From Niveibacterium sp. SC-1 (GTDB lineage: Bacteria > Pseudomonadota > Gammaproteobacteria > Burkholderiales > Rhodocyclaceae): 64,000 nt of DNA. The notes below the pieces were generated by a model, which saw only the letters and a list, made by a program, of their open reading frames with translations, ran no database searches and was not told the origin of the DNA. Position numbers and translations under genes: made by a program. Location of the stretch: contig NZ_CP151275.1 of the NCBI RefSeq assembly GCF_038235435.1, forward strand, positions 4,278,001 to 4,342,000. The letters are read 5' to 3'. Shown piece by piece: positions 52,576 to 64,000 of this stretch; positions within the stretch are counted from its first letter, which is position 1, and every line of letters starts with the position of its first letter.

Positions 52576-52837
52576 GACCTTCCTCCCCTCTGACCGCGCC
52601 GAGCAGCACAGGAAGCCAGAGGTACCGGGCGAAGCCCGGCGCGAGCACTGTCCGAGCTCCGTTGTTCACGGATGCTTCTCCCGCGAACAAAAGGGCGAGT
52701 TGCGCAGCGCTCTGGCTTCCGAGCAGCGCAGGGCACCGCACGCAGTGCGGCGCGGCCAGCGGGGTCGCCTTTCTTTGCTTACTTTCTTTGGCGAAGCAAA
52801 GAAAGTAACCCGCCCGCCGGGGCGGGACCCGGCCAAT
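52576..52837 (-). repeat. Composite repeat, right-type arm (arm 3b)
   Basis: Inverted arm ending GGGACCCGGCCAATT. Hairpin 52779-52808: TTACTTTCTTTG, loop GCGAAG, CAAAGAAAGTAA. No gene is visible in 51972-52934 apart from the repeat unit. Confidence 0.9.
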
Positions 52838-53960: not shown

Positions 53961-54351
53961 ATCCACGTCTCCTCAGTTCTCAGTCAAAACCCTCGCAAGC
54001 CAGAGCGCGATTCTTGCGTGTCGTTCGCTGCATCGCACCGGCCCTGTTGCATCCATGCCGTCGCGTGCCGGACGCGCTGCGACGATGTGTCGACTGGCGT
54101 CCCTGCTGCTTGCAAAACGGCCGTTCCCGATCATGAACGAGAACGCATCCGGGCTCATGGACGAAACGGATACAGACCCTACCTGCACCGCCACGGAGCA
54201 CGCCGCGCACCGCGCCGGTGCTGGCTCTGGCGGCTACGCAGCCCCTACGCAATCTGACGTATTCCTCGAAATCGGGGCAAACGTGAAAGTGGCATCGCAG
54301 CTTCTCACCTATTCACTTGTCGTCACCCGTTCAGACCTGAGGAAGACCACC
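53961..54351. other. Upstream region of urtA
   Basis: This 391-bp gap holds no gene I can support. GCAC-N7-GTGC at 54207-54221 matches the NtrC half-site spacing. I find only poor sigma-54 matches, for example near 54095. Promoter elements for urtA are therefore unclear. Confidence 0.4.
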
Positions 54352-63527: not shown

Positions 63528-63542
63528 GCACCAAGTCTGTGC
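63528..63542 (+). promoter_or_regulatory. NtrC-like enhancer site
   Basis: GCAC-N7-GTGC (GCACCAAGTCTGTGC), the same half sites and spacing as in enterobacterial NtrC sites, about 135 bp upstream of the -24 element. Confidence 0.6.
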
Positions 63543-63675
63543 GCGCCCCCTTTGACCAGCCTCAGTGCGGTGCGCGGCCGGAGCATGACGGCACGGTGCC
63601 GGGCGACGGAGTGAAAGGGCTCCGGCGGCGAGGACCGCGGTCTTCGCCCCGGATTCACGCATGCGCAGATCGGTA

Positions 63676-63691
63676 TGGCACCGCTCTTGCT
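63676..63691 (+). promoter_or_regulatory. Sigma-54 promoter
   Basis: TGGCAC-CGCTC-TTGCT is a perfect match to the consensus TGGCAC-N5-TTGCW. It lies 50 bp before the riboswitch. This class needs an activator such as NtrC. Confidence 0.8.
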
Positions 63692-63740
63692 AATTCCCCG
63701 GCCATGAGAGGGGCAACGCATCGCCGCTGCTTCTTCAAGG

Positions 63741-63850
63741 GGAACTAGGGTTCCGACTGTCTGCAAGGCAGTGCCTGGTCCGAGAGTTCCCGGTCTTCAC
63801 GGCGCATCGCGCCCTCGAAGGCTCCACGGAGGGACAAAAGCCCGGGAGGA
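63741..63850 (+). promoter_or_regulatory. Guanidine-I (ykkC) riboswitch
   Basis: All conserved blocks are present in order: AACTAGGGTTCCG, CTGGTCCGAGAG, ACGGAGGGACAAAAGCCCGG and GAG, separated by the expected hairpins (e.g. ACTGTCTGCAAGGCAGT). The ligand is guanidine in the ykkC subtype 1 class. Confidence 0.93.
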
Positions 63851-63904
63851 TCGCTTGGAATAGCGCCTCTCGTGCCCGTGAACCTCACCGCCCAGGAGTC
63901 TTCG

Positions 63905-64000
63905 ATGCGCCAGTCCCCGATCCGTGCCGGGTCCCCCGCCACCGCATTCCTCGCCCGTCTCCGTCATTTCCCGCGCCGCATTTTGCAGACGGGCGCACAG
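63905..64000 (+). CDS. N-terminal fragment of the riboswitch-controlled gene
   Basis: Thirty-two codons from an ATG preceded by AGGAG. The protein starts MRQSPIRAGSPATAFLARLR, then HFPRRILQTGAQ, basic and running off the window. A signal-like or twin-arginine-like start is possible. By analogy with other guanidine-I operons it should be a guanidine carboxylase, hydrolase or transporter component, but the visible part cannot decide. Confidence 0.55.
   Translation, partial: MRQSPIRAGSPATAFLARLRHFPRRILQTGAQ

Follow-up and report, generated by a model that had tools for sequence, protein, structure and literature searches.

Operons for guanidine assimilation that carry two guanidine riboswitches have been described in Raoultella terrigena, Erwinia rhapontici, Klebsiella michiganensis and Vreelandella boliviensis and, as far as the accessible parts of those reports go, their gene set and the positions of both riboswitches are the same as in the locus considered here (PMC12186494, PMC12508155). 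Betaproteobacterial ammonia oxidizers have the same aptamer and the carboxylase pathway (PMC11410670, accessible part). The locus also resembles members of the NtrC/sigma-54 regulon in having a -24/-12 promoter, an upstream GCAC-N7-GTGC palindrome and a genome that encodes NtrC and RpoN; unlike them, it has a ligand-sensing RNA between the promoter and the genes. In the accessible text of the two-riboswitch reports, the words 'sigma', 'NtrC' and 'rpoN' are absent from PMC12186494, and 'Ntr' and 'rpoN' from PMC12508155, where 'sigma' occurs only as a supplier. COG3665 (102 genes, 59% of them named urea carboxylase) is among predicted sigma-54 targets in a study whose accessible part makes no mention of guanidine (PMC12316311). 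Our search of the openly licensed literature brought up no paper that links a guanidine riboswitch to sigma-54 or NtrC; an earlier mention is possible. The parts are known, and their combination is widespread and, within the literature searched, undescribed.

Below, we describe the right-hand end of the window, by which we mean the whole 64-kb stretch of Niveibacterium sp. SC-1 DNA that was analysed, along with the continuation of the genome beyond it (L002, in which a position equals the window position minus 59000). We consider it probable, at roughly 80%, that this end of the window holds the control region of a guanidine-assimilation operon gated by two signals, nitrogen shortage and guanidine.

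The control region and the operon behind it

Scanning the whole window with Rfam (cmscan) gave a single match above threshold, the guanidine-I riboswitch RF00442 at 63734-63850 on the forward strand (score 90.2 bits, E 6.5e-15, where the gathering threshold is 63). The match spans model positions 1-107 of 107 and is thus full length; it is the one guanidine-I aptamer in the 5.17 Mb genome. The covariance model therefore bears out the aptamer of the original prediction, and the sigma-54 promoter claimed there also stands: TGGCACCGCTCTTGCT at 63676-63691 is the sole perfect match to TGGCAC-N5-TTGCW in the window, where matches with at most one mismatch number three against 1.89 expected. Motifs were scored against what we take to be the consensus of the sigma-54 site and of the NtrC site. 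The GG-N10-GC core is perfect in its TGGCAC/TTGCT context and has the same spacing in relatives; 42 nt separate the end of the site from the start of the aptamer, and in the R. terrigena and E. rhapontici records the site likewise lies 40-41 nt before the aptamer. Transcription from sigma-54 promoters starts 11-12 nt past the -12 element, which would place the start here at 63702. The gene start, too, is as predicted, with ATG 63905, behind AGGAG, being the start codon of a 350-aa substrate-binding protein. The parts of the control region, all on the forward strand, are as follows.

63528-63542, forward: NtrC-type palindrome GCAC-N7-GTGC, GCACCAAGTCTGTGC; centred some 167 bp ahead of the predicted start, spacing enriched in relatives
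63676-63691, forward: sigma-54 promoter (-24/-12) TGGCAC-N5-TTGCT, TGGCACCGCTCTTGCT; motif match, position kept in 143/168 loci
63702, forward: predicted transcription start, 12 nt past the C of the -12 element
63706-63714, forward: leader strand GAGAGGGGC, which can pair with 63863-63871
63734-63850, forward: guanidine-I riboswitch aptamer (RF00442), Rfam covariance model
63844-63871, forward: alternative hairpin, in which the aptamer 3' end (GGGAGG) pairs with CCUCUC; z -1.71, no U tract behind
63863-63871, forward: 3' strand GCGCCUCUC, with two competing partners, the leader strand or the aptamer 3' end
63894-63898, forward: Shine-Dalgarno sequence AGGAG, upstream of ATG 63905
63905-64000, running past the window, forward: gene for an SsuA-family substrate-binding protein of a putative guanidine importer (350 aa, ends at L002:5957)

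Genes for guanidine use were anticipated beyond position 64000, and importer, CgdA, CgdB, guanidine carboxylase and allophanate hydrolase genes do follow.

L002:4905-5957: SsuA-family substrate-binding protein; above the cut-off of TIGR01728, below that of the urea-named TIGR03427
L002:6057-6884: permease
L002:6903-7745: ATPase
L002:7777-8580: UAAP1/CgdA
L002:8595-9254: UAAP2/CgdB
L002:9260-9990: repeat-rich stretch of about 700 bp, from cgdB to the guanidine-II element
L002:9987-10041: guanidine-II riboswitch (38.0 bits, gathering score 32), about 5 kb beyond the right end of the window
L002:10061-13693: carboxylase (1210 aa), directly behind the guanidine-II riboswitch
L002:13690-15576: allophanate hydrolase

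CgdA, CgdB and the allophanate hydrolase are each above cut-off, in TIGR03425, TIGR03424 and TIGR02713, respectively. Guanidine carboxylases are recognized, in the accessible part of PMC11410670, by Asp at both positions 1330 and 1584 of the Kluyveromyces lactis urea amidolyase. Aligned with that protein, the predicted carboxylase carries this guanidine signature, with Asp699 at position 1330 and Asp956 at position 1584, the latter equivalence being counted along a cut alignment. Judged by their sequences, the genes past the window are the published two-riboswitch guanidine operon (PMC12186494, PMC12508155, accessible parts). This genome differs from the published operons in having the repeat-rich stretch after cgdB, ahead of the guanidine-II element. 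The stretch contains a repeat with a 32-base palindromic core, TTACTTTCTTTGCTTCGCCAAAGAAAGTAAGC, which has seven matches in the genome with at most three mismatches; one is inside the window (4330777; window near 52800) and two flank the stretch. Judged by eye, there also seems to be similar sequence between urt genes.

It had also been suggested that the use of guanidine and of urea nitrogen might be joined here through urtABCDE. This is not supported by the distribution of UrtA, by an intervening gene or by the carboxylase route. In the window, the distance from UrtA to the aptamer is 9.4 kb. Nine other guanidine-I genomes searched for UrtA divide into three with no match (E <= 1e-60), three in which UrtA and the riboswitch are on different contigs and three with both on one contig, about 70 to 910 kb apart. 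Among the stretches listed by the pattern scan described below, UrtA occurs in 1/119, a weak test given that distance, the stretches being at most 8 kb long and just 48/119 reaching 4 kb upstream. A gene of the cyclopropane-fatty-acid-synthase family, scoring under each model's curated cut-off, stands between urtE and the operon. The carboxylase route has carboxyguanidine and allophanate as its intermediates and does not go by way of free urea (PMC12186494, accessible part). A perfect GCAC-N7-GTGC at 54207-54221 precedes the start of UrtA (54352) by about 140 bp, and no near-perfect sigma-54 site was found between the two.

The promoter and aptamer across Pseudomonadota

Guanidine-I loci above the Rfam cut-off were gathered from four overlapping samples, whose scoring used stricter filters at the cost of weak matches: the family of the window (found in 9 of 199 genomes), its class (29 of 369), its order (50 of 399) and its phylum (41 of 398). 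The switch is thus patchy in the family, with no match in five further genomes from the genus of the window. With six sub-threshold matches excluded (three each from the order and phylum samples), there are 168 distinct loci in Pseudomonadota. Sigma-54 sites were scored with a weighting of our own (maximum 21, threshold 18.5).

In the 115 nt ending 5 nt before the aptamer, 141/168 loci have a sigma-54 site, compared with 37/3969 equal segments elsewhere in the same loci. Stretching the segment to 3 nt past the aptamer start raises the count to 143/168, in 49/56 families, the two loci gained being L031 and L032. An unweighted test, which asks for TGGC and then GC at the spacing of a sigma-54 site, is positive in 135/168 loci, with 5 to 13 at six other spacings. 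Sorted by first gene, with labels taken from a translated search because longest-ORF labels mislabelled some loci, the site precedes 103/111 substrate-binding protein genes, 24/25 permease genes, 7/9 cgdA genes and 3/5 arginase-family genes (one Pfam-checked), as well as 6/6 genes that are other or unlabelled; it precedes 0/10 APC permease genes, 0/1 carboxylase genes and 0/1 cgdB genes. Outside one family of ammonia oxidizers (f3, discussed below) it is missing in 14/157 loci. TPP riboswitches, taken as a control, have the site in 0/27 cases (5 of the 27 are below the Rfam cut-off), and guanidine-II riboswitches in 2/19 (2 below cut-off), a weak control in that many of the elements are operon-internal. 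Both guanidine-II positives (L295, L308) are from one genome, G325, in which two guanidine-II elements were found.

Scanning named genomes for the combined pattern of promoter and aptamer returned at least 119 stretches. Six of these were submitted to Rfam and five, from R. terrigena, E. rhapontici, Pseudomonas profundi, Cupriavidus numazuensis and Zoogloea dura, have guanidine-I above threshold. The sixth, a Spirochaetales assembly (L219), matched the pattern but has no guanidine-I above the Rfam threshold. Overall, the sequence evidence for promoter and aptamer is strong.

Some loci depart from the usual arrangement. In several loci outside the class of the window (L090, L092, L160, L161, L163 and L166), a mere 10-11 nt separate the sigma-54 site from the aptamer, and the RNA would therefore begin at the aptamer itself, without a leader strand. 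The first gene after a sigma-54 site and guanidine-I aptamer in two genomes of family f215 (L144:1110-1952, reverse strand, and L145) encodes a xylose-isomerase-like TIM-barrel protein (PF01261, one of the two genes checked), possibly an unrecognized guanidine-related enzyme. At L103:886-1884 (reverse strand), the first gene found in this position is of the fatty-acid-desaturase family (PF00487).

NtrC as the putative activator

The original prediction placed an NtrC-type site 135 bp before the promoter. The palindrome at 63528-63542 is indeed perfect, and its kind is enriched in relatives; the gap, when counted, is 133 bases. Within the window alone it is at chance level: perfect copies of GCAC-N7-GTGC lie at three places (43074, 54207 and 63528) and those with at most one mismatch number 57, against 64.4 expected from shuffles. 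It becomes credible only through comparison with relatives. Of the 143 sigma-54 loci, 140 have enough upstream sequence, and 40 of these have a perfect palindrome in the 250 bp that precede the -24 element, compared with 8/1643 control segments; with one mismatch, the numbers are 113/140 and 212/1643. Spacer 7 alone is enriched, other spacers (3 to 6, 8 to 12) being found in 0 to 4 loci each. The perfect form is missing in 100/140. R. terrigena has no palindrome within 260 bp, even with one mismatch, and E. rhapontici has one, with a mismatch. The genome of the window encodes RpoN and also NtrC (705.1 bits against the TIGR01818 cut-off of 558.6). Taken together, the sequence evidence that NtrC may control guanidine-I promoters is good.

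Family f3 is an informative exception, in which promoter, palindrome and an NtrC above cut-off are absent together. Its 11 guanidine-I loci include none with a sigma-54 site and none with a palindrome, even with one mismatch; the first gene is an APC permease in 10/11 (one Pfam-checked) and a carboxylase in the other. Ammonia monooxygenase (PF02461) is found in 7/10 f3 genomes, with no match in three. RpoN is present in 10/10, and NtrC above cut-off in 0/10 (best 425.5), whereas four other genomes compared are all above. Three ammonia-oxidizing strains convert guanidine to nitrite only when ammonium is also present (PMC11410670, accessible part). This would be the reverse of a nitrogen-starvation lock, which would forbid such use.

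Published expression data are also relevant. In Burkholderia cenocepacia H111 under nitrogen limitation, expression of I35_7282 (cyclic-nucleotide phosphodiesterase), 7283 (urea-carboxylase-related ABC periplasmic protein), 7285 (aminomethyltransferase) and 7286 (urea carboxylase) falls in an ntrC mutant, with log2 changes of -4.7 for I35_7282 and -6.0 for 7286 and no reads for 7283 and 7285, according to the accessible part of PMC5491218. That study classes I35_7283-7286 as urea genes, and the words guanidine and riboswitch are absent from its text. In another B. cenocepacia strain (L336), a substrate-binding-protein gene and divergent UAAP1 and UAAP2 genes adjoin a phosphodiesterase-family gene. 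Two divergent guanidine-I aptamers are present there; a sigma-54 site precedes each of them, and a single palindrome lies in between. The two strains are matched here on the order and naming of their genes rather than on sequence; so matched, the H111 data fit the nitrogen half of the proposed control.

A proposed two-signal model of control

The guanidine-I switch of PMC12508155 (accessible part) is presumed there to act through an intrinsic terminator, formed by a hairpin at the aptamer 3' end and a U tract. The window copy has the hairpin, which 10/200 shuffles equal or better in folding, and the leader strand, and no U tract was found behind the hairpin; this lowers the claim of a terminator here and does not lower that of a riboswitch. 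In relatives, U is enriched behind the hairpin, peaking at 0.43 over a background of 0.205, and 30/122 have at least five U in six, compared with 2/122 shuffles, so some of them look like transcription attenuators. These 122 loci, all with a recognized Shine-Dalgarno sequence, are part of a set of 128 sigma-54 loci whose leaders measure 25 nt or more. In the predicted ligand-free ensemble, the 3' region pairs with the aptamer 3' end (at least four expected pairs) in 113/122, and pairing with the leader reaches five expected pairs in just 13/122. For the local hairpin, the last 10 aptamer bases alone hardly distinguish own from cross pairings (15.8 and 15.4), and a longer aptamer arm does so weakly (20.2 and 18.3).

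The RNA that follows the predicted start is also able to pair with that following the aptamer. Among the 128 loci, the mean stem score is 30.5 within a locus and 23.1 for cross pairings between loci of different families; scores of at least 30 are reached by 70/128 own and 441/3840 cross pairings, and occur in 33/42 families. The leader strand begins at a median of +3. For the window itself the score is 24.5, near a threshold of 24 that 1562/3840 cross pairings, about 4 in 10, also reach; such high cross scores arise partly because many families share the GAGAGG/CCUCUC motif. Plain duplex comparison of the leader with the 3' region was set aside in favour of the stem score, being blurred by long bulged duplexes (-30.8 own, -26.4 cross). 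Evidence for a leader helix is thus moderate in the relatives and weak in the window.

From these parts, the following scheme may be proposed. When nitrogen is short, phosphorylated NtrC bound upstream would activate sigma-54 polymerase at 63676-63691, and only then would the RNA be made. The nascent RNA would fold the guanidine-I aptamer. Without guanidine, the CCUCUC strand would draw the aptamer 3' end into the alternative hairpin, by whatever output the 'off' fold may act; with guanidine, the aptamer would retain its 3' end, and the freed CCUCUC would be captured by GAGAGG at the 5' end of the transcript, so that expression continues. The guanidine-II switch before the carboxylase gene would repeat the test for guanidine. 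A broader proposal, which we put at a little short of even odds, is that the guanidine-I switches of most Pseudomonadota are built for a sigma-54 transcript: placement of the promoter would make the first nucleotides (median +3 onward) the strand that frees the aptamer from the 'off' hairpin, and start site and switch would have co-evolved as one two-signal device, which, like NtrC, is missing from ammonia oxidizers, organisms that use the released ammonia as fuel.

Other readings have been considered. It is conceivable that the sigma-54 promoter is real and driven by another enhancer-binding protein, in which case the first signal would not be nitrogen shortage sensed by NtrC. At E <= 0.001 the NtrC model does have 61 matches in the genome, the majority being partial or under the cut-off, and the perfect palindrome accompanies only 40/140 sigma-54 loci; against this, the one-mismatch palindrome is enriched at spacer 7 alone (113/140 and 212/1643), promoter and NtrC are jointly missing in the ammonia-oxidizer family while RpoN is kept, and the ntrC-mutant RNA-seq in B. 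cenocepacia (PMC5491218, accessible part) points to NtrC. We regard a different activator as unlikely. Slightly less likely again is that the riboswitch has ceased to gate the operon in this genome and nitrogen alone controls it, the aptamer being a remnant. The modest stability of the hairpin, with no U tract behind it, and a leader helix weaker (24.5) than in many relatives would suit a remnant; against it stand the full-length aptamer at 90.2 bits and an intact operon in which a further guanidine switch scores 38.0 bits (cut-off 32).

Many annotations would make this a urea-use operon and the guanidine reading wrong. NCBIfam TIGR02712 names the enzyme urea carboxylase, at 1904.3 bits, and urtABCDE lies upstream. 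Asp699 and Asp956, which are the residues of a guanidine carboxylase in the accessible part of PMC11410670, the presence of CgdA and CgdB, and riboswitches of two guanidine classes in one operon speak so clearly for the other substrate that we consider a urea operon highly improbable. Control of a guanidine operon by nitrogen shortage and guanidine together is therefore the reading that we prefer.

The question of why guanidine sensing is so common among bacteria continues to be raised (PMC12186494, accessible part). The placement of the sensor behind a promoter of the nitrogen-starvation type in 143/168 loci suggests that there guanidine is a reserve source of nitrogen, and not only a poison. 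A gate with two inputs would also give a reason for the strong response of urea-labelled genes in published work on NtrC. Betaproteobacterial ammonia oxidizers, which unlike the window have an APC permease first (10/11), a sigma-54 site in 0/11 loci and NtrC above cut-off in 0/10 genomes, would, in having no nitrogen lock, provide a natural comparison.
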